A stretch of DNA of 64,000 bases, from positions 1,674,001-1,738,000 of the forward strand of contig NZ_CP045484.1 of NCBI RefSeq assembly GCF_009729055.1, written 5' to 3'. Position 1 is the stretch's first letter. Each line of letters starts with the position of its first letter. Positions 51,305-64,000 of this stretch are shown piece after piece. Source of the DNA: Sulfurisphaera ohwakuensis. GTDB taxonomy: Archaea; Thermoproteota; Thermoprotei_A; Sulfolobales; Sulfolobaceae. Made by a program: the position numbers and the translations under genes. The notes beneath the pieces were generated by a model. That model saw only the letters and a program-made list of their open reading frames with translations. It was not told where the DNA came from and made no database searches.

Positions 51305-51796
51305 ATGATTAAAGAGCCTTATGCTACATTACTTAATAATATAGTCAGAATAATGAGGGAGGAATTTAAGGACGATCTTATATCTATTGTACTTTACGGA
51401 AGCGTTGCCAGAGGAGATAACAGAAATGATAGTGATGTTGACTTACTAATAGTTATGAATAACCTACCTAAGGATAGTATGCTGAAGAGAATTAGATTGT
51501 TTGAAACCAGAGTTGAAGATAAGTTAAATTTAGATGAGTACTGGAATAAGGGATATTATATATCACTCTCTCCTATCCTTAAAACTCCAGATGAAGCAGA
51601 AAAGATTTCACCTCTTTATCTAGACATGGTATATGATGCTGTGATACTTTACGATAAGGATCAATTCTTTACAAGGATATTGGAAAAGCTAAAAGAGAAG
51701 CTTAGAGAATTAGGTGCTGAGAGGATAATAATGGGCAAAAAGTGGTACTGGATACTGAAAAAAGATTCGAAATTCGGTGAAACTGTTGAACTTTGA
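51305..51796 (+). CDS. MNT-type nucleotidyltransferase (antitoxin)
   Basis: 163 residues. Polymerase-beta-like signature IVLYGSVARGDNRNDSDVDLLIV (Gly-Ser...Asp-x-Asp) at about 29-51. In MNT-HEPN pairs this enzyme AMPylates the HEPN toxin and silences it. It overlaps the HEPN gene by 20 bases. Length is larger than minimal MNT (about 100), with a helical C-terminal part. Confidence 0.88.
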   Translation: MIKEPYATLLNNIVRIMREEFKDDLISIVLYGSVARGDNRNDSDVDLLIVMNNLPKDSMLKRIRLFETRVEDKLNLDEYWNKGYYISLSPILKTPDEAEKISPLYLDMVYDAVILYDKDQFFTRILEKLKEKLRELGAERIIMGKKWYWILKKDSKFGETVEL

Positions 51797-52214
51797 CTCT
51801 CTTGCATTATCATATATCTTACAAGCCGAAGAGAGATTAAACTTGGCTAAAATAGAGAATGAAAGGAAGAAATATAATATAGTAGTGAGGCTTTGCCAAG
51901 AAGCTGTAGAACTTTCACTTAAAGCTTGTTTAAGATTAGTTAATATTGAACCACCAAAATTTCATGATGTAGGACCAATATTGAAAAACAACGCAGAAAA
52001 ATTCCCCCAATGGTTCAGGGAAAAAATAGATATTTTTGCTTCTTACTCAAGATCGTTAAGAAAAGAGAGAGAACTATCAATGTACGGCGATGAAGAAACT
52101 AACACACCCCCAGAACTACTTTACTCAGCGTATGATGCACAGCTGTCAATCAGAATTGCTGAGGAAGTATTAGAATACGCAAAGAAACTTTATGAAGAGA
52201 AGAAGAATCAGTAA
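51777..52214 (+). CDS. HEPN-domain protein (toxin partner of MNT)
   Basis: 145 residues, GTG start 51777. Helical HEPN pattern: ALSYILQAEERLNLAK and LCQEAVELSLKACLRLVNIE. The RxKxxxH-type RNase motif is not evident, but SMYGDEE near residue 108 resembles the conserved tyrosine motif (tens of residues before the C-terminal helix) that is AMPylated in the HepT family. A type VII toxin-antitoxin pair is likely; the toxin may be inactive. Confidence 0.82.
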   Translation: MKLLNFDSLALSYILQAEERLNLAKIENERKKYNIVVRLCQEAVELSLKACLRLVNIEPPKFHDVGPILKNNAEKFPQWFREKIDIFASYSRSLRKERELSMYGDEETNTPPELLYSAYDAQLSIRIAEEVLEYAKKLYEEKKNQ

Positions 52215-52306: not shown

Positions 52307-54529
52307 TTATTGAACAAAACTCCATAAGGAGACTAAAACACTATCCATCGACATAGCTAAGGCAGCATATTCTGGAGGCAAATAGAAGGGGTAAAGTATA
52401 CCAGCTGAAATTGGTATTAAAACAGAATTATAAGTAAAAGCCCAAGCTAAATTCTCCTTTATTTTCCTCACAGTCCTCTTAGACTGTTCAATAACATATT
52501 TGATAGAGAGAACGGAAGGTACAATAATATCTCCAGCGTACTTAGCAATATCAGTACCAGTAGAAACAGCAATACCAACTAAAGCCTCTTTCAAAGCTTG
52601 AGCATCATTAACACCATCACCGACAAAAATTACCTTACCGAGCTTTCTAACTAGTTCTACTTTATCATCTGGCGAAAGACCCTTATACACTTTTACTCCC
52701 AGAACTTCTCCTACCTTATCGGCAAAATTACTTGAATCACCAGTAGCAATAATAACCTCATAGTATTTCTTAAGCTCATTAACCAACTCAACAACCCCAT
52801 CTCTTATTTTATCTTCCAACAAAAACCCAGCAACAACTTTTGAGTCAACACAAACTAAAACATCAGCATCTAAATCTCCTTCACAATTCTTAAGTACAAA
52901 TTCCCTTTTACCCACTATTACATCATGATCATTAACCTTTCCGTATACACCCTCCCCTTGAAATTCGTTAAAGTCCTTAACTTTAGCATTTACATCATAT
53001 AAAGACGCAATAGCCTTACCTACTGGATGAGAACTAAGCTTTTCCACAGCACATGCTAATTTTATTGCGTTTTCATCACCTATCGGTTTTACTATAAACT
53101 CTCCGGTAGTTATAGTCCCAGTCTTATCAAAAACAATATATTTCGCCTCTCTAAGCCTCTCTAAACTCTCAGCATTCCTTACCTTAATTCCCTTTTTAAC
53201 CAATTTCCTTATTCCTACCATAACAGCCATAGGTGTTGCTAAACCAAAAGGACACGGACATGCTGAGGCTAAGACTGCAACAGAAATTAAAATAGAGAAA
53301 GTAAGCGAATGAGAGACTACATACCATAATGCAAAGGCTAAAACAGAAACTCCAATCACTACTGGGACAAAGATTGATGAAACCTTATCAACAAGTGACT
53401 GTATAGGTAACCTAGTAGTCTCAGCCTCTCTTATAGCCTCAATAACTTGCGAAATATAAGTCCTATTTCCAGCCCTAGTAACATAAACTTTAAGAAAACC
53501 AGAAGTTAAGATTGAACCGCCAATCACAGGATCTCCCTTCTTTTTTCTCACCGGTATAGTCTCACCAGTATAAATTGACTCATTAACATATCCTTCTCCT
53601 TCATCAACAATACCATCAGCGGGAATAATCTCACCGGACTTAACCATGACTACATCACCAACCCTCAATTTAGAGGAATCCACTAAAGTACCATCAGTAA
53701 GTCTGGCCTTAACAGTTTGAAGTCTAATAACGTCATCTGAAGTCTTCTCCTTAATATAGGCTTCTAAAGTCTTTCCTATAAGAATGAAAGTAATTAAGAG
53801 GGAAGAAGCTTCAAAAAAGTAATTAGAAGAATGTATTAGGTAAGAGTAAAGGCTATAAAACCAGGCAATATTAGACGAGAGGGAAACTAGCGTATCCATA
53901 TTGCTGGTCTTATTTCTTAAAGCTCTAAGAAAACCTAAATGAAATCTTAAGCCCGAATAGAATTGGACTGGAATTGATAAGAAAAGCTGGTAAGCTGGAA
54001 AGATGAATATGAGAAAAGAGAAGACTGAGGCAATTACTAACCTTGTAAATAAATCACGAAAGTCACTTTTTCCCTTAAAGCTCTCAGTAGTTATTTCAGC
54101 TTTATAACCTCTCCTCCTTAATTCCTCAACAATTTCATCTCCAGTTACAGTTGCAGGATTAATTTCGAGAATAACAAAACCCGAAGAAGGATTAATCTTA
54201 ACGTCAATAATTCCAGGTATATTATCTAGAACAGAAATCAGTTTACCGGCTTCTTCTTCACTAAGGCTTACTTTTAAAGTAACTTTTTGTGTTACAACGT
54301 CGTAACCAGCCTTTCTAACAGCCCTTACAATATCCTTCAACCTAGCATTTTCAATTACAACCCTAGCATTACCAGAGGCTAAGTTAACATTTACATCTTT
54401 TACCCCTTGAACGGAAGAAATTGCCTTAGATACTGTTGAAACACAAGTTGCACAATGCATTCCTACGATTTTTAACTCTTCTTCCCTCTTAATCCTAAGA
54501 TCTTTCTTCTCATTTCTCACCTCGCTCAT
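52307..54529 (-). CDS. copA: Copper-exporting P1B-type ATPase
   Basis: 740 residues. N-terminal metal-binding domain with GMHCATC (about 23-29); a second ferredoxin-like domain (about 80-145) lacks CxxC and is structural. Eight helices; the ion-binding motif is ACPCPFGLATP, with Pro-Phe where most have Ala-Leu. DKTGTITTGE phosphorylation site, HPVGKAI (nucleotide site), GDGVNDAQAL hinge. Exports Cu+ across the membrane. Preceded by copM after 14 bases. Confidence 0.95.
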   Translation of the reverse strand: MSEVRNEKKDLRIKREEELKIVGMHCATCVSTVSKAISSVQGVKDVNVNLASGNARVVIENARLKDIVRAVRKAGYDVVTQKVTLKVSLSEEEAGKLISVLDNIPGIIDVKINPSSGFVILEINPATVTGDEIVEELRRRGYKAEITTESFKGKSDFRDLFTRLVIASVFSFLIFIFPAYQLFLSIPVQFYSGLRFHLGFLRALRNKTSNMDTLVSLSSNIAWFYSLYSYLIHSSNYFFEASSLLITFILIGKTLEAYIKEKTSDDVIRLQTVKARLTDGTLVDSSKLRVGDVVMVKSGEIIPADGIVDEGEGYVNESIYTGETIPVRKKKGDPVIGGSILTSGFLKVYVTRAGNRTYISQVIEAIREAETTRLPIQSLVDKVSSIFVPVVIGVSVLAFALWYVVSHSLTFSILISVAVLASACPCPFGLATPMAVMVGIRKLVKKGIKVRNAESLERLREAKYIVFDKTGTITTGEFIVKPIGDENAIKLACAVEKLSSHPVGKAIASLYDVNAKVKDFNEFQGEGVYGKVNDHDVIVGKREFVLKNCEGDLDADVLVCVDSKVVAGFLLEDKIRDGVVELVNELKKYYEVIIATGDSSNFADKVGEVLGVKVYKGLSPDDKVELVRKLGKVIFVGDGVNDAQALKEALVGIAVSTGTDIAKYAGDIIVPSVLSIKYVIEQSKRTVRKIKENLAWAFTYNSVLIPISAGILYPFYLPPEYAALAMSMDSVLVSLWSFVQ

Positions 54530-54543
54530 TGCGAATACACCAA

Positions 54544-54720
54544 TTAATGATGACCTTCTTCATCTGGCATTCCTTTAGGTCCTTCTCTTAAGTACTTCTC
54601 TGGGTCTTTTTCAAACGCCCTTTTACATGCAGAACTACAAAAATAGTATATTTTACCTTTATACATTGTCTTATATTGTGATGATTCATTTACTTCCATT
54701 CCACAAACCGGGTCAATCAT
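54544..54720 (-). CDS. copM: YHS/TRASH-domain copper chaperone
   Basis: 58 residues, too short for most gene callers. Frame intact from ATG 54720 to TAA. YHS/TRASH motif DPVCGMEV, then YYFCSSACKRAFEKDPEKYL; His-His C-terminus. Equivalent of the Sulfolobus copM gene, a metallochaperone of the copTMA cluster. A TATA-like box at 54741-54749 lies about 25 bases before the start. Co-transcribed with copA. Confidence 0.85.
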   Translation of the reverse strand: MIDPVCGMEVNESSQYKTMYKGKIYYFCSSACKRAFEKDPEKYLREGPKGMPDEEGHH

Positions 54721-54825
54721 AATCTTAAATTCTCGTCAATTGTATATTTACTTAACGTTTACAAAGAAACTTTTTCTTACTTATTAAGATCGCTAAAAAT
54801 AAAAATGTAAATTGAAAAGGGAATA
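54721..54825. promoter_or_regulatory. Divergent copMA / copT control region
   Basis: Minus side: TATA-like TGTATATTTA (54741-54750). Plus side: A-rich TATA candidate near 54793-54806 and purine run AAAAGGG before copT. CopT in Sulfolobus binds the copMA promoter and releases it with copper; a binding site would lie here. I see an AT-rich direct repeat TTTAC (54747-54751, 54758-54762), but nothing that I would call the operator with certainty. Confidence 0.55.
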
Positions 54826-55341
54826 ATGATGACAAAAGTAAACCAAATTGAGTATAAGATTTTACAAATGTTAAAAGAGGATTCGAGGAAAAGTGCAAGT
54901 AAAATAGCAAAGGAACTTGGCTTAAGTAGGGCTACGGTAGCTAAAATAATAAAATCGTTAAAAGATAAAGGGGTTAAATTTACAGTTGAATATCACGAGA
55001 AGGGAGAACTGTTCGCATTTGTAATTTCTGATAAATGTCTTGCTGAAGAATGCTACAAACTTATAGACGGAAAAATAATGAACATAATAAGAGGAGATTT
55101 GAGTACTATTAGCCAGAAACTTTCAGAATTAGGAAGTGACAAGTATTTTATTTCCATGGAAAAGTTAAATGAAGTAAGTATAGAGAGAGCGGAACTATAT
55201 TGTGACTATTGCGGAAATGAGATTAAAGGAAATCCATATTTGGTAAAGTTAGGTAAAAAAGTGTATTACACTTGTTGTAAAACGTGCCAAACTCAGCTAA
55301 AGAAAAAGTTAGAGCACGGAAATGATGGAGGAAAACTATAA
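54826..55341 (+). CDS. copT: Copper-responsive regulator (AsnC-type HTH plus TRASH)
   Basis: 171 residues. N-terminal Lrp/AsnC-type HTH (VNQIEYKILQMLKEDSRKSA, recognition helix LSRATVAKIIKSLKD), a linker, and a C-terminal TRASH zinc/copper domain: CDYCGNEI then YYTCCKTCQTQL. This is the architecture of Sulfolobus CopT, which represses copMA. Either of the two leading ATGs may be the start. Divergent from copMA. Confidence 0.92.
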   Translation: MMTKVNQIEYKILQMLKEDSRKSASKIAKELGLSRATVAKIIKSLKDKGVKFTVEYHEKGELFAFVISDKCLAEECYKLIDGKIMNIIRGDLSTISQKLSELGSDKYFISMEKLNEVSIERAELYCDYCGNEIKGNPYLVKLGKKVYYTCCKTCQTQLKKKLEHGNDGGKL

Positions 55342-55368: not shown

Positions 55369-55444
55369 GCGGCCGTAGTCTAGCCTGGATTAGGACGCCG
55401 GCCTGCCACGCCGGAGGTCCCGGGTTCAAATCCCGGCGGTCGCA
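55369..55444 (+). tRNA. tRNA-Gly (anticodon GCC), integration target
   Basis: Complete cloverleaf: acceptor GCGGCCG / CGGTCGC with one G-T pair, anticodon stem CCGGC / GCCGG around loop CTGCCAC (anticodon GCC), T arm CCGGG-TTCAAAT-CCCGG, discriminator A. No intron. CCA is not encoded. The 3' half also lies within an antisense integrase frame (55380-55637), so the gene is the chromosomal attachment site of an integrated element and has remained intact. Confidence 0.96.
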
Positions 55445-55637
55445 CTGTTAGGGGGAGGAATCCCCCTAATACCCCCTCTTTTTCTTTTAGATAAGTTTCC
55501 ACGACGTCAACTAAAGGACCTACGTAAGTTTCCTTTACCTCACCGTTCACCGTTTCCAATTTATAGACATAATACCGCCCTTTTCTCTCACGTATAATTA
55601 TGTCGCCATATTTATAACGCGTCTTTTATTTCGTCAT
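55380..55637 (-). pseudogene. int: SSV-type integrase N-terminal fragment, int(N), at attL
   Basis: Minus strand from ATG 55637: MTK, a stop (TAA), then [20 protein letters not shown] and [17 protein letters not shown], a close match to the known start of SSV integrases. The frame then runs without interruption through the antisense of the tRNA 3' half, giving [10 protein letters not shown], and stops at 55380. In SSV-type integration the attachment site lies inside int, so int is split; this is the int(N) half. The TAA at codon 4 would need to be CAA or similar in an active virus. Confidence 0.9.
55448..55469. repeat. 9-base perfect hairpin in the int(N) frame
   Basis: TTAGGGGGA / TCCCCCTAA around GGAA, just after the tRNA, followed by C- and T-rich bases on the plus strand. 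It could end tRNA transcription, but since it is inside the int coding frame on the other strand, its conservation may be of coding origin. Confidence 0.5.
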
Positions 55638-55708
55638 TTTCCGTCAAGTATTATGGTTGCCAAAACTTGCTTAAAACTTTGGCAACCCGTAAAATTTTGC
55701 CGTCAAAA
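55491..55708 (-). repeat. 218-base direct repeat, copy 1
   Basis: Matches 58355-58572 at 215 of 218 bases, same orientation. It covers the first about 49 codons of the integrase gene and its promoter region. The three differences, all in the upstream part, are transitions. Recombination between copies would remove 2.86 kb. Confidence 0.95.
55655..55687 (-). promoter_or_regulatory. Inverted repeat upstream of int(N)
   Basis: GGTTGCCAAA (55655-55664) / TTTGGCAACC (55678-55687), 10-base arms, 13-base spacer, 18 bases before the int ATG. In repeat copy 2 the same dyad (58520-58550) has 9-base arms. Likely a regulator site of the integrase promoter. Confidence 0.6.
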
Positions 55709-55829: not shown

Positions 55830-56027
55830 ATGCCGGAAAGTTTAGTAGTCAGAGACCCTAAATATCTGGGTAAGTTCATTGCAGTAGACGAGAACTTTAA
55901 TATTATAGGCTATGCCGATTCCAGAGAAGAGCTAGAAAAGGAGTTAACAAGAAAGGGTTATAGTATAGCAGATTACGATATAATATATGTCCCTAAATCC
56001 TTCAAGAAAAACACTGAAGGTCATTAA
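55830..56027 (+). CDS. DUF5678-like small protein
   Basis: 65 residues. DPKYLGKFIAVDENFNIIGY followed by a charged helix (SREELEKELTRKG) and IIYVPKSF is the DUF5678 pattern, found in archaea next to retropepsin-like proteins. It overlaps the next gene by 41 bases, so the pair is coupled. A TATA-like TATTAGTATAAATG lies at about 55804-55817. Possibly a small regulator or antitoxin-like partner; function unknown. Confidence 0.78.
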   Translation: MPESLVVRDPKYLGKFIAVDENFNIIGYADSREELEKELTRKGYSIADYDIIYVPKSFKKNTEGH

Positions 56028-56427
56028 ATTTTCGGACTTCTACGGAAACCTTATTCCTTTACTAAAAATAAGGTTTGAATGCCCTAAGCTTGGAAAGGAC
56101 AAATTGGTACTAGGGTTAATAGATACAGGTAGCAGATATACAGTTGTAAACAAGTATACCGCTAATGAATGTTTCACAGAAGATGAAATGAGATCTAGAT
56201 ATGTAGATAGAGTAATAATTAATAATAGGGAATATTATAGATATTCATTTAGGTTTACCTTTCCTCAGCTAGATGATATAAGCTGGAACTTTAACGCTGC
56301 TATAATGGAGTATAACCCTTACCCAGAAGAAATAGTCCCGGCTGTAATTTTAGGTAGAGAAGATTTCTTACGCAATATTATAGTATGTATATATAAATCT
56401 GAATGGATGACATTATATATTGATTAG
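55987..56427 (+). CDS. Retropepsin-like aspartyl protease
   Basis: 146 residues. LGLIDTGSRYTVVN carries the Asp-Thr-Gly active site at about residue 45-47, and PAVILGREDFL is the flap-to-second-strand hallmark (hydrophobic-hydrophobic-Gly-Arg) of single-domain, dimeric retropepsins. Pairs with DUF5678 through a 41-base overlap. Such pairs recur in archaea; the target of cleavage is unknown. Confidence 0.78.
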   Translation: MSLNPSRKTLKVIKFSDFYGNLIPLLKIRFECPKLGKDKLVLGLIDTGSRYTVVNKYTANECFTEDEMRSRYVDRVIINNREYYRYSFRFTFPQLDDISWNFNAAIMEYNPYPEEIVPAVILGREDFLRNIIVCIYKSEWMTLYID

Positions 56428-57589: not shown

Positions 57590-57742
57590 ATGAGAATTGT
57601 TAAGAAAGGTGAAGATACTTTCGTAGAATTTGAAGACTTTGGGGAATTAAGGGATATATTTAATGAGGCAATTAAAGAGCTAGAGGATGAAGAAAAAGCT
57701 AAGACCCGTAAACCTTCTTATGAGACCCAATCCCCCAAATAA
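57590..57742 (+). CDS. Small acidic protein, possible antitoxin
   Basis: 50 residues: MRIVKKGEDTFVEFEDFGEL, then an acidic helix and a basic tail. The layout (short strand, helix, disordered tail) fits small RelB-like antitoxins. Its last 44 bases are antisense to the 3' end of the RelE-like gene, so they are convergent and overlapping rather than in one operon, which is unusual. Pairing is inference. Confidence 0.5.
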   Translation: MRIVKKGEDTFVEFEDFGELRDIFNEAIKELEDEEKAKTRKPSYETQSPK

Positions 57743-58007
57743 ATACGATACAGTTTTTTGAATCCACACTATAAAGTATCCTTATATCACCGGTAACCTC
57801 TATAGAAAACATAGGATTTCCGTACTTATCCTTTCCCAGCTTCTCTCTGGTGTACTTAAATGGATCCTTATATAACAATTCCAGTTTCTCAAGGATAATC
57901 CTAAGAAGTTTTGAGCGTGGAAAATTCCTCTTCAACCACTTTATGAACTCTGCTCTATCCATTTCACCCTTAACTAAGAATCTAAAAATCCACTTCTCAC
58001 AAACCAT
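57699..58007 (-). CDS. RelE/ParE-superfamily toxin
   Basis: 102 residues. RAEFIKWLKRNFPRSKLLRI at the N-terminus and GDIRILYSVDSKNCIVFIWG then SHKKVY at the end match the RelE fold (two helices, then a sheet with the conserved Arg and the C-terminal His/Tyr). Probably a ribosome-dependent mRNA interferase. No same-strand antitoxin seen; see the convergent 50-residue frame. Part of the integrated element. Confidence 0.78.
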   Translation of the reverse strand: MVCEKWIFRFLVKGEMDRAEFIKWLKRNFPRSKLLRIILEKLELLYKDPFKYTREKLGKDKYGNPMFSIEVTGDIRILYSVDSKNCIVFIWGIGSHKKVYGS

Positions 58008-58288: not shown

Positions 58289-58501
58289 CTAACAATAAAA
58301 AAATCTAGTTGGAGCTAGGGTGATATCCCCTATTATCCCCGATTTCAATTTTATATAAGTTTCCACGACGTCAACTAAAGGACCTACGTAAGTTTCCTTT
58401 ACCTCACCGTTCACCGTTTCCAATTTATAGACATAATACCGCCCTTTTCTCTCACGTATAATTATGTCGCCATATTTATAACGCGTCTTTTATTTCGTCA
58501 T
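58289..58501 (-). pseudogene. int: Second SSV-type int(N) fragment
   Basis: Same start as the first copy, including the TAA at codon 4, identical to about codon 49, then [18 protein letters not shown] and a stop at 58289. The continuation KLKSGIIGD is closer to free viral integrases than copy 1, but the tRNA-antisense part (PPGFEPG) is missing. Likely the remnant of another integration or of a tandem duplication whose attachment end was deleted. Confidence 0.85.
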
Positions 58502-58572
58502 TTTCCGTCAAGTATTATGGTTGCCAAAACTTGCTTAAAACTTTGGCAACTCGTAAAATTTTGCTATCAAAA
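58355..58572 (-). repeat. 218-base direct repeat, copy 2
   Basis: Partner of 55491-55708; three differences, all in the last 30 bases (upstream of the int promoter dyad or within it). Contains the dyad 58520-58528 / 58542-58550. Confidence 0.95.
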
Positions 58573-59040
58573 TGTGTGTAGCTGAAAGAAGTCGATAAAT
58601 ATTCCTTTGTCGCGCAAAAAATTAAATTTCAGAACCCTAGATTATTTACTATACATAGAAAGATTGATAGATAAATAATAGAAGATTTTTAGTTATTGAT
58701 AAGACGCCCATATTTATGAAATCGCTGCTATAGATGAAGAAGCTACCTAGTACGTAGTGTCCGTTTCATTATTTCTGCTAAAGTGAAAAGAAGTGACAAC
58801 GTTAACTACTTGAGTAATCACAAGACGATTACTATTGAGTAGGAGGAGTTATGTTAATGTCACTAACTGAAGCCTACACAAAACGATTAATCCAGACAAT
58901 CGTCAAGACGTTTATATGATTCATAAGCTATTAATCGTTAACTTCGGGGTAGTCCTTTTGTATGTCCTCCTGCTTTACACCTTATTTATTATTTGTTGCA
59001 TTGAAGAATTATTTACGTTACGAAGAGCATACAAAGAATA
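58573..59040. other. Gene-poor stretch of the element
   Basis: No intact gene. A dyad AGTAATC / GATTACT (58813-58819, 58827-58833) is present, and short protein-like pieces (for example EIAAIDEEAT followed by a stop near 58751) hint at decayed genes, but none can be named. Confidence 0.4.
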
Positions 59041-59214
59041 GTAGTTTAAACGAAATTCCGTTACCATAAAAAATCATAATATTTATTTCGTGAGTTAATA
59101 AATATTTTTTAATTTTATTTCTTAGTCTATCGCTTATCAGAAAAAATTTTCAGTTAGTAAGAGGATCTTTATTATATATTTTTAACGTAAAGTATAACTG
59201 TAACGATTTTCCTA
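59041..59214 (+). repeat. About 170-base diverged direct repeat, copy A
   Basis: Aligns with 62781-62951 over the whole length (GTAGTTTAA, TTACCATAAAAAAT, ATAATATTT and the final 22-base core are shared), with indels. The core TATAACTGTAACGATTTTCC (then TA) also occurs at 28799-28820. It seems to be an upstream region duplicated before small genes; here a zinc-finger relic follows. Confidence 0.75.
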
Positions 59215-59223
59215 TAGTGCTAA

Positions 59224-59292
59224 AAGAAGTGTCCAATTTGCGGTAAAGTGTTCACATTAACCATGTGACGTTAGACCATGTTTGAAAAAACA
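59224..59292 (+). pseudogene. C2H2 zinc-finger relic
   Basis: KKCPICGKVFTLTM followed by in-frame stops. C-P-x-C-G-K-x-F is the first half of a C2H2 finger, a very common type of small protein in Sulfolobus viruses. No start codon in frame; the histidine half is lost. Recognition rests on one motif. Confidence 0.4.
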
Positions 59293-59320
59293 TAATATCC
59301 GCGTAAGTTAGTGATTTATC

Positions 59321-59650
59321 ATGGATAGGCTAAAGGTTATTTGGCTTCTCATTATCTTAGGTAATATATTTGATTACGTGACAACGCTTCTGTTTTCCTA
59401 TTTTGGTATATTATATATGGATCGTAACATCCTCATAGGCTATAACACAAATTTTACAGACGTTTTGTTAACCTTAACCGGTGAGAAGTTATTGTTCTTA
59501 AGTGGAGTTTATTGGTTTAGCAAATTATTCGATTATCTAAAAATCAGTAAGTATAAATGGATCGGGCTTTTACCTTTTACAATAATAACTACCATAATAT
59601 GCGTACTTGACTTGTTAGGGCTTATCTTTTACTTCTTAAGCTCTTTATAA
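59321..59650 (+). CDS. DUF5658-like membrane protein
   Basis: 109 residues, three or four helices. GNIFDYVTTLLFSYFGILYM with a second segment GEKLLFLSGVYWFSKLFDYL fits DUF5658 (N-x-x-D-x-x-T-T-L... then a Lys-containing helix). TATA-like elements are weak. A broken relative is at 62219-62531. Probably encoded by the integrated element; function unknown. Confidence 0.68.
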   Translation: MDRLKVIWLLIILGNIFDYVTTLLFSYFGILYMDRNILIGYNTNFTDVLLTLTGEKLLFLSGVYWFSKLFDYLKISKYKWIGLLPFTIITTIICVLDLLGLIFYFLSSL

Positions 59651-59674
59651 AGTTAAACTCTTTTTTCGCTTACA

Positions 59675-60590
59675 ATGAGGAAGGAACTACTAACTTTAGT
59701 TTTCATAACAATACTATTGACGCCGATTGTGCTAAACATAACACCTAAAGCGATAACAGCATCAGATGTAGGAGCACAAAAAATATACACAACATCTTCT
59801 GGAAATTGGGCCGGTGTCGTATACTCAGTTTATAATACTTCAACAGATGCACCTATAGAAATAACATCAGTAAGCGAGTCAGTGTGTTTCGGAAACGCTG
59901 AAGTTAATTATGTTCCAGATCCTTACGGGGCTGATGATATCGGTATATGGGTTGCTCTAAGTCCTCAACCTTCTACTAACCCTCTTATAGGTTATTGTTT
60001 CTTCCAAGCCGGCTTTGGTCTAATAGTGTACTCTAATGGTTCTTATGCATTGAATCCTTTCGTAATAGCTATTACGCTTTCTGGCGGTAAGATACAACCA
60101 ATAGTTGATTATTATAACACAATACCTATTGAAACTGTAAATGACTTAGTATTATCAATGTTCATATAATATGAGGGAAACGGAAAAGTATATATTTGTC
60201 TGGCCGCGGGGTATCAAATTCCCTCTGGGCCATATGACCAGTTTTTCCAATACTCAAATACTTTTTCATAGCCTTTTTGGCTCTACACCAGAATCAGCAT
60301 ATACCATAATAGAAGCACCTTATGTTGGCGATACTAATTATCATTATTCATTACCGCAGATATCCGGTGGATTAATATACGGTTTTAATTTTATGTATCC
60401 ATCGGGACAAGGACCCGGATCCTCACAACCAAATACGGAGTTTGTAGCTGTGTTATTTAACTTAAACTCGCTTGTTAATTACAATTATGTTTATGCATAT
60501 CCCTATAGCGGTACTGGAACTACTGGTGCATGGCAATATACATACGAGTTTATTGATACACAGAACGACCAAACTACGTATGGTTTATAA
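59675..60590 (+). pseudogene. Broken secreted glutamic-peptidase (G1)-like gene
   Basis: Signal peptide 1-29, then SSGNWAGVVYS, the NWAG start of the eqolisin fold, GIWVAL and FFQAGFGL (catalytic Gln position), and later SAYTIIEAPYVGD (catalytic Glu position). Three pieces: frame 1 to TAA 60167-60169, the same frame on to about 60262 (YEGNGKVYICLAAGYQIPSG), then a +1 shift at a T5 run (60262-60266) into the frame ending at 60590. Repairing the TAA and one T gives about 304 residues. Eqolisins are acid proteases, mostly fungal, so an archaeal copy is notable. Confidence 0.6.
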
Positions 60591-60653
60591 AGGTAACTCT
60601 TTTTTCTTTTTCTTTTGAATGGATTTATAACTTTAAATCCTTAATCAGTTTTA

Positions 60654-60914
60654 ATGAGAAGGGCCACCATCCTACTTTCTATCATTTCGGTTGTGCTAAT
60701 AACGATAGGGGTTTACTTTTTTATGATAGATAAACCTACTATGATCCACCCACCTAAGGTAGTATTCAATACGTCAATAATTAAAGCTAATTATGGTGGA
60801 CCCCCAATACTCGTAAACCCTCCACCATGGTATGCAAACCTATGGCCTGAAACGCTAACAGCCGGAATTGTATTACTTCTAATCTCAGCCCTCCTATTAA
60901 GGTGTAACTCCTGA
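60654..60914 (+). CDS. Two-helix membrane protein, NLWPET family, copy 1
   Basis: 86 residues. Helices at about 6-24 and 68-83 enclose a Pro-rich outside loop with PPPWYANLWPETLTAG. The same motif recurs in the next two loci, so these are tandem duplicates. No known family. Composition and position suggest a virion or element membrane protein. Basic N-terminus and RCNS end. Confidence 0.65.
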   Translation: MRRATILLSIISVVLITIGVYFFMIDKPTMIHPPKVVFNTSIIKANYGGPPILVNPPPWYANLWPETLTAGIVLLLISALLLRCNS

Positions 60915-60977
60915 ACCGACAGTTACTTCACTTTGTTTCGGAAAAACCTTTATAAGTCAATTTTCTTTTTTATAGAC

Positions 60978-61346
60978 ATGGAATTTGTTTCACTTTTTGT
61001 CTTCGTTTCCGGAATAATTGTAGCTTTATTAACTCTTTATTTCTCACCGGATTTTGGAAGGGTTAAACCAAATAAAAGAAACCTATCGACCATATTTTTA
61101 TCGCTAGCCCTTGCGGGAATAGGTTTATGGCTTTACTACATTGACCGCCCAACATATATTGCTAAGCCCATAAAGCCTATTTTACCACCAGGGAATTTTG
61201 ATACATATTTTGGCCTTTATGGCCCTCAAGTGGAGTATATTCGTATCCCACCACCTTGGTACGCAAACCTATGGTCGGAAACACTAACATCTGGTGTTAT
61301 ATTGTTAGCCTTAGTAGTTTTCCTACATTTCAGACCCAGAAAATAG
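60978..61346 (+). CDS. Two/three-helix membrane protein, NLWPET family, copy 2
   Basis: 122 residues from ATG 60978, chosen because a TATA-like TTTATAA at about 60950-60956 lies some 25 bases before it; a longer frame opens at 60933. Helices at about 4-24, 38-55 and 100-117; loop IDRPTYIAKP then PPPWYANLWSETLTSG. Close to copy 1 in the second half, with an added N-terminal helix. Confidence 0.68.
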   Translation: MEFVSLFVFVSGIIVALLTLYFSPDFGRVKPNKRNLSTIFLSLALAGIGLWLYYIDRPTYIAKPIKPILPPGNFDTYFGLYGPQVEYIRIPPPWYANLWSETLTSGVILLALVVFLHFRPRK

Positions 61347-61379
61347 TCCCTTTATAAACTTACTCTTTTTCCACTATTA

Positions 61380-61550
61380 ATGAAGTGAGCCATAGTCTTT
61401 ATCCTATTTGTTGATATATCAGTATCAAATAATACGATATTGTTTACAGAGAGACGCTATTCTATAATGATAGCTCTACTTGAGAGTGCAAATACGTATA
61501 TTGTACCGACATTCGGCCCAGGAACTCAAGGAGTTCAATACTACTTGTGA
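61380..61550 (+). pseudogene. Short secreted-protein gene with an internal TGA
   Basis: M-K-stop-A-I-V-F-I-L-F: a 56-codon frame (ATG 61380 to TGA 61548) with TGA at codon 3 that would be TGG (Trp) in a working gene, giving a normal signal sequence. It contains GPGTQGVQYYL near the end. Preceded by a TATA-like CTTTATAAACTTA at about 61350-61362, at the right distance. No family. Confidence 0.45.
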
Positions 61551-61568
61551 ATAAATTTTTATAATATA

Positions 61569-61925
61569 AGGTATTTCTTCCTTATATTAATAATAGCCCT
61601 AGTTCTCCTCGGTGTATCGCTCTATCTTCACTCGATAGACCATGTTACTATACCACGGTAAAACATACTACCCAGAGCAATATCACAACAACTGTAACCA
61701 ATGCAACGGCCGCCATTTATAATTACGTAAGACAACTTTCATCCCCATTAGCGAGTGCTCAGTACCTACCGCAACTCCACCATAACCAGACTAGCTTAAC
61801 TAACTCTACTACGACAAACAACCAGACCACCACCTTATGAAAACCTCTGGCCAGAAACAGTGGCAATAGGAATAACACTACTCCTAACCTCAGTTCTTCT
61901 ACTAAGGCGTAAATCAGACCATTAA
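61569..61925 (+). pseudogene. NLWPET family, copy 3, frameshifted
   Basis: Frame 0: RYFFLILIIALVLLGVSLYL and SIDHVTIPR to TAA 61659; frame 2 (61688 on): TTVTNATAAIYNYVRQLSS and an Asn/Thr/Gln-rich loop; frame 0 again from 61836: YENLWPETVAIGITLLLTS to TAA 61925. The two shifts compensate. The helix-loop-helix order and the NLWPET motif match copies 1 and 2, but the loop is longer. Confidence 0.55.
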
Positions 61926-62218
61926 TAAACTCACACTCTTTATGCGATGTATAATACTAAGTATTTAGTAGTGAAGTATTGCTTAAAGTTCTTACTTTGG
62001 GCCAATATCTACTATCTCAATGCTGTATTTTAATTCAGTTTGTAATTCTATAGTGCACGAAAATGTCTTTACGTCCAAGACCAGTTACTTATAATAGGCA
62101 TATTATCAGTGTTATGAACTTTATAACGGTGAGATTTTTCGAAGAAAAACATTAAGCATCTAGTCGTTAAGTATACTTACGATAAAATTCTTTTACTCAT
62201 ATACTTTAGCGTAATAAG

Positions 62219-62531
62219 ATGACTCTAAACCTAATTTATGATCTGATATCGTTCTTTGGATTTCAGTTTAACGACTTTTGGTCAACAGTGCTAGGATTAA
62301 GGGTAGGTGCTGTAGAGCAAAATCCATTAGCCCGCTTAGTCTCTAAATCATGGATAACATTAGCGTTATATAAGTTCAGTCTTGCTGGGTTAGCTTTTTC
62401 CCCTAATTTTCTTAACAATACCAATTAACACTATAAGGACTTATATTATAATAGCTGCAGATGAACTAGAATGTCTAGTAACGTTAAATAATATTTTAGC
62501 AATTAAACAACATAAGAGGAATAAAAAGTGA
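62219..62531 (+). pseudogene. DUF5658-like gene with one extra T
   Basis: Frame from ATG 62219: FQFNDFWSTVLGLRVGAVEQ and NPLARLVSKSWITLALYKF, typical of DUF5658. Removing one T from the T5 run 62395-62399 continues as FLTIPINTIRTYIIIAADEL and ends KQHKRNKK at 62531, about 103 residues in total. As it stands, translation ends after 69 codons. Confidence 0.65.
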
Positions 62532-63806: not shown

Positions 63807-64000
63807 ATGAGAATATCTTTCACAACTATAATTGCATTTGTATTAATATTCTTAGGTATATTCATAAACTTCATGCCAACAATAATTTATTATATTCAAG
63901 TATATCCTAAGATTCCCCTAAATAGAGTCGAACCAGGGGCTTACTTCACTTATGTAGCGCAAGATTTAGTTATTCCACTAAAATCAACTAACGATAGCAA
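63807..64000 (+). CDS. Membrane-anchored protein, cut by the window edge
   Basis: Open frame from ATG 63807 to the last base (64 codons so far). N-terminal helix at about 5-32, then an outside segment with YPKIPLNRVEPGAYFTYV. TATA-like TTTTAAATATATAA at about 63779-63792 supports the start. No stop reached; family unknown. Confidence 0.55.
   Translation, partial: MRISFTTIIAFVLIFLGIFINFMPTIIYYIQVYPKIPLNRVEPGAYFTYVAQDLVIPLKSTNDS

Follow-up and report, generated by a model that had tools for sequence, protein, structure and literature searches.

The window, i.e., the whole stretch of DNA analysed, comprises 64,000 nucleotides of the Sulfurisphaera ohwakuensis genome, positions 1674001–1738000 of a single contig of 2.80 Mb. 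Its sole tRNA gene, identified with ARAGORN, is an intact tRNA-Gly(GCC). A minus-strand frame of 85 codons, designated int(N) A, begins at 55637, runs antisense through the 3′ half of this tRNA and stops at 55380–55382, inside the tRNA 5′ half (Table 1). Past codon 4, the frame matches the N-termini of SSV integrases at 76–79% identity, far above chance: 76% to the SSV1 integrase and 79% (best E 2e-32) to the integrases of the Mutnovsky and S. islandicus fuselloviruses. The frame includes the peptide PPGFEPG, which is the tRNA T arm translated antisense. A T-arm peptide of this type is the usual mark of an SSV-type attP lying inside int. An integrase N-terminus antisense over the 3′ half of an intact tRNA is the arrangement of an SSV-type attL, and identity and tRNA overlap together bear out the assignment made in the sequence-only reading, namely an N-terminal fragment of an SSV-type (type I, "suicidal") integrase on the attL side of tRNA-Gly(GCC).

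That reading also had the frame running from 55637 without a stop. The SSV integrase N-terminus and the antisense course through the tRNA 3′ half stand, but codon 4 is TAA (55626–55628). The ATG at 55637 can thus be read for three codons only, and the next in-frame start-type codon, the TTG of codon 27, lies behind the conserved N-terminus. That is, copy A is not an open frame from its start codon. Near the tRNA, just two int(N) fragments were recognised, and no whole integrase gene, as at a pNOB8-type site, was recognised beside it. Immediately to the left of the tRNA, at 52307–55341, are a heavy-metal P-type ATPase and a TRASH-domain regulator, a copper-type locus, and at 51305–52214 neighbouring nucleotidyltransferase (MNT-like) and HEPN genes form a typical toxin-antitoxin pair.

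Table 1. Features at and to the right of tRNA-Gly(GCC), in window positions.
Feature	Position	Strand	Remark
tRNA-Gly(GCC), intact; 3′ half is the SSV attachment core (attL side)	55369..55445	+	ARAGORN
int(N) copy A, SSV-type integrase N-terminal fragment, pseudogene	55380..55637	-	TAA at codon 4
Inverted repeat TTGCCAA-N15-TTGGCAA, just upstream of int(N) A	55657..55685	.	
DUF5678-like small ORF, between the int(N) copies	55830..56027	+	Score just under Pfam cut-off
146-aa ORF with LIDTGS motif, retropepsin-like by eye	55987..56427	+	No Pfam match
ParE/RelE-like toxin ORF	57699..58007	-	Weak matches
int(N) copy B; TAA at codon 4 as in copy A; no tRNA core	58301..58501	-	
Inverted repeat upstream of int(N) B	58521..58549	.	
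SSV2 ORF155 / SSVK1 B158 homologue, degraded	58750..59036	+	
SSVK1 B111 homologue, 73% aa identity, phrog_8567	59321..59650	+	
SSV2 ORF305 homologue (phrog_11028), pseudogene split over two ORFs	59675..60590	+	
SSVK1 C108 partial homologue, phrog_9637	60654..60914	+	
SSVK1 C108 homologue, 59% aa identity	60933..61346	+	
SSV2 ORF100 / SSVK1 B98 homologue, frameshifted, DUF5658-like	62219..62528	+	Last recognisable viral piece

The second fragment, int(N) B, lies 2.9 kb from A. It went unremarked in the sequence-only reading, as did the fusellovirus remnants to its right. Copies A and B share one tract of 196 bp with 100% identity (55491–55686 and 58355–58550), which spans the inverted repeat, the TAA and the greater part of int(N), and beyond this tract they are clearly divergent. 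The inverted repeat is expected 0.02 times by chance in the window. It also precedes int in SSV1, ASV1 and pSSVi, as well as many chromosomal int(N) copies. Since the int promoter has its TATA-like element between the two arms of the repeat, the repeat plausibly serves as an operator here.

The stretch between A and B holds the DUF5678-like, 146-aa LIDTGS and ParE-like ORFs and one of 82 aa, and in none of them is a viral origin recognisable. Genome G003 likewise has the ParE region, at 1.2 kb from its orthologous tRNA-Gly. Fusellovirus genes are recognisable only to the right of B, at 58750–62528, where they are broken or partial; several SSV-homologous genes beside an int(N) are what a fusellovirus remnant presents. 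Among these remnants, the tested SSV proteins VP1, VP3, VP4 and DnaA-like, i.e., the core by which a Fuselloviridae provirus is recognised, and int(C) have no match; the VP4 negative holds for the S. ohwakuensis genome. It had been proposed that everything rightwards, past the window's end at 64000, is an integrated virus or plasmid. Fusellovirus genes do lie to the right, but as fragments only, within 58.7–62.5 kb, and from 62.1 kb the chromosome is syntenic with sister genome G002. This colinearity starts at 62110 and continues for over 40 kb beyond the right end of the window.

A provirus of this kind would end in int(C) and a second copy of the tRNA core, and both had been predicted beyond the window. 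A whole-genome blast with the tRNA and its 3′ flank found no copy of the core between 1.729 and 2.029 Mb, about 300 kb rightwards, and neither int(C) nor a tRNA repeat occurs within the first 50 kb or so. Profile searches of the genome found int(C) at no more than two loci. The int(C) at 2154574 (2.15 Mb) is rejected as the partner of int(N) A, as it forms the end of a pRN-like element in tRNA-Ala(CGC), and that at 1128678 (1.13 Mb) is rejected because its core matches tRNA-Thr(GGT). Neither mark of a complete SSV-type provirus, i.e., a far-end int(C) with the catalytic domain and a direct repeat of the core, was therefore found, and tRNA-Gly(GCC) carries an orphan scar, an int(N) without its int(C). 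The element in tRNA-Ala(CGC) (genome 2148365–2155488) appears to be an intact pRN-like plasmid, with int(N), a 902-aa replication protein, small DNA-binding ORFs, int(C) and a core repeat. The truncated int(C) with its tRNA-Thr core (genome 1128621–1129121) is a relic of the opposite and rarer kind; beside tRNA-Thr(GGT) itself (genome 1135433–1135507), no int(N) was recognised.

G002 has, at the same tRNA, an int(N) and a related decayed viral set, so the integration is old. G003 is without the SSV int(N) at tRNA-Gly(GCC) and has instead a piece resembling a pNOB8-type integrase, as judged by eye against a 441-aa integrase. This piece, and the inversion of the neighbouring block, disqualify G003 as a clean empty site; a rearrangement around this tRNA sets S. 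ohwakuensis and G002 apart from G003. G001 lacks a tRNA-Gly at the orthologous position, which lies behind its copT-like gene. An identical sequence in strains devoid of the downstream genes, which would have spoken against an integration, was not encountered: int(N) is absent from G003 and is present together with related viral remnants in G002. The exact 32-mer of tRNA-Gly(GCC) was found in no viral contig searched.

Copies A and B belong to a larger family. The S. ohwakuensis genome has 12 int(N) matches, most of them beside tRNAs (Gly-GCC, Gly-CCC, Val-GAC, His-GTG, Pro-TGG, Ala-GGC, Ala-TGC and Ala-CGC). Across 31 Sulfolobaceae genomes, 198 int(N) matches (E ≤ 1e-3) stand against about 32 distinct int(C) loci (strong rows, counted by hand), a ratio of about 6:1. 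In viral contigs, the same two alignments recognise int(N) in 10 contigs and int(C) in 11, which argues against a detection bias as the source of the excess, given that this count used a different search method, that the sample partly overlaps the viruses behind the models and that the models are unequal in length. We found no published report of the asymmetry in a literature search that scarcely covered subscription journals. Most int(N) frames in the 31 genomes have no stop inside the match. Four S. ohwakuensis copies, i.e., A at Gly-GCC, B at 58.3 kb, and those at Gly-CCC and Val-GAC, have TAA at codon 4, and all four carry ATGACGAAATAA. Neither ATGACGAAATAA nor the codon-4 TAA form is present in any of the 30 other genomes searched, and the TAA form did not appear in scans of viral and GTDB contigs, from which the S. 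ohwakuensis genome was possibly left out.

Comparison with G002 reveals int(N) sequences that differ within chromosomal flanks that scarcely do. At tRNA-Val(GAC), int(N) differs at 71 of 215 sites, whereas flanks and tRNA differ at 8 of 1165 (Fisher p 6e-53); the divergence begins and ends abruptly, on one side at the tRNA end and on the other within the promoter repeat. For tRNA-Gly(CCC), the corresponding counts are 72 of 324 for int(N) and 6 of 787 for the flanks (Fisher p 3e-34), with a more gradual outer border. The windows for both tests were chosen after inspection of the profiles, and the p-values thus express a contrast rather than a blind test. At both sites, then, the two sides of int(N) are about 98–100% identical between the sister genomes and int(N) differs by 22–33%. 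Large parts of the compared genomes are about 91–93% identical, as against about 98–100% for these flanks. Within G002, the Val-GAC and Gly-CCC int(N) copies are 99% identical over 150 nt, whereas their flanks are unrelated. For copy A, only the tRNA-side flank is orthologous to G002. Direct evidence of an in-place int(N) swap comes from tRNA-Val(GAC) and tRNA-Gly(CCC) rather than from tRNA-Gly(GCC). The exchanged tracts are seen as such; behind them we infer either of two processes. The simplest would be gene conversion, in which int(N) copies recombine homologously with one another. A virus that integrated beside an old scar would be expected to leave an equal trace if recombination between the two int(N) repeats then removed it.

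The reading that we consider very probable is that the locus preserves the orphan int(N) scar of an SSV-type integration beside the remains of a fusellovirus, in a genome whose scars are overwritten by homologous recombination. An SSV-type fusellovirus entered the 3′ half of tRNA-Gly(GCC) by means of its self-splitting integrase, leaving, as the anatomy of the locus shows, the integrase N-terminus antisense into the restored tRNA. The provirus has since decayed, with loss of int(C), the second core and the tested structural and replication genes, and the few broken SSV genes at 58.7–62.5 kb behind the second int(N) are what survives. The int(N) fragment has outlasted the virus, now as a pseudogene with its codon-4 TAA. 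Rather than decaying independently, it was most likely overwritten when it recombined with further int(N) copies or with the int genes of arriving viruses, because A and B share the 196-bp tract, the TAA recurs in four copies and the sister int(N) sequences differ within near-identical flanks. No function of the scar is needed for this explanation, and none emerged.

Three points count against it. The arrangement of tRNA, int(N) A, ParE region, int(N) B and SSV genes in this order is only partly accounted for, since B has no core, the ParE region is near the same tRNA in G003, and S. ohwakuensis and G002 are rearranged relative to G003. The in-place swap is documented at two other tRNAs and not directly at tRNA-Gly(GCC). 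In addition, the shared TAA could have come from repeat visits by a single TAA-bearing virus lineage, although no such virus was found. Taken further, this last point becomes an account of its own, in which the four TAA copies are independent captures of one lineage whose integrase starts elsewhere or is supplied in trans. The copies do share the start region (GGAAAATGACGAAATAA) beyond the TAA, are largely open after it, and have dN < dS among themselves after the stop. However, no virus and no genome besides that of S. ohwakuensis was found to carry the codon-4 TAA, the identity of A and B is confined to a single tract of exactly 196 bp that gives way to divergent sequence at either end, and the same genome pair exhibits in-place swapping at orthologous sites. 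We regard independent capture as unlikely.

Somewhat less likely still is that int(N) is kept for a function, be it by encoding a short protein that binds DNA or the integrase, by acting as a promoter/operator element, or by rejoining a new int(C) and so making integration reversible. In its favour are the excess of int(N) over int(C) in the 31 genomes set against the near parity in viral contigs, the predominance of frames without a stop in the match, and the finding that in S. solfataricus P2 (pXQ1/XQ2) int(N) alone is transcribed (PMC8371274). Ala-GGC int(N) orthologues with orthologous flanks give dN/dS of 0.10–0.38; this is not accepted as proof of function, as overwriting by, or renewal from, viral genes would also be expected to yield dN < dS. 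Against a function, the four S. ohwakuensis copies are broken at codon 4.

Tandem integrations also speak for rejoining. In G001 (tRNA-Val-GAC), G002 (tRNA-Ala-TGC), G014 and G017, a newer element has its int(C) directly followed by an older int(N), in the order int(C)-core-int(N). By its geometry, such a join could re-create a whole integrase gene. In the int(N)-int(C) joins examined, i.e., these four and one in G028, the frames do not match or int(N) is degraded, and no intact in-frame hybrid integrase was found among the tandem junctions read; that in-frame joins are lost through excision is speculation. A broader proposal is that orphan int(N) scars are a dispersed family whose members persist after their viruses have gone and undergo concerted evolution, each being overwritten in place time and again through homologous recombination with other scars or with visiting viruses. 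In-frame scars would let the next virus rebuild its integrase, making "suicidal" integration reversible, whereas broken (TAA) scars would close this exit. We hold this to be doubtful.

A complete SSV-type provirus with int(C) and second core beyond the window would suit the genuine int(N) at the tRNA and the SSV-like genes, but with the core absent for about 300 kb, both int(C) loci belonging to other tRNAs, G002 colinear from 62.1 kb and the viral genes incomplete and broken, it is refuted for the present assembly, and misassembly alone could revive it.

The preferred reading, an overwritten orphan scar, has partial precedents. The suicidal split of the integrase is reviewed in PMC8371274. 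The type I integrations of SSV1/SSV2 and pXQ1 (She et al.; PMC8371274) share the antisense int(N), the restored tRNA and the 76–79% aa identity; in contrast to them, the present locus has neither int(C) nor second core, has TAA at codon 4 and has lost most of the virus. Orphan intN fragments at tRNAs are known in S. islandicus LAL14/1, REY15A and HVE10/4 (PMC3718332), and those at tRNA-Gly(GCC) resemble them as remnants; unlike them, two copies lie 2.9 kb apart with a 196-bp identical tract, and the stop is common to four copies in the genome. In the model of Badel et al. 2020, as described in PMC8371274, homologous recombination between integrated elements gives rise to chimeric suicidal integrases. 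Recombination of related integrated int sequences is common to both cases. Their model is one of inversion between whole elements in Thermococcales, whereas here the exchange involves short tracts of orphan int(N) scars in Sulfolobaceae.

The scar is ordinary in kind; the int(N) excess and the in-place exchange behind it are more interesting. They bear on an open question, i.e., what becomes of self-splitting archaeal integrases once integration has destroyed the integrase gene. An int(N) excess of about 6:1, together with in-place exchange within constant flanks, indicates that int(N) fragments are not random, passively decaying debris. In-place exchange of int(N) is thereby a testable route by which integrases may acquire new N-terminal parts.
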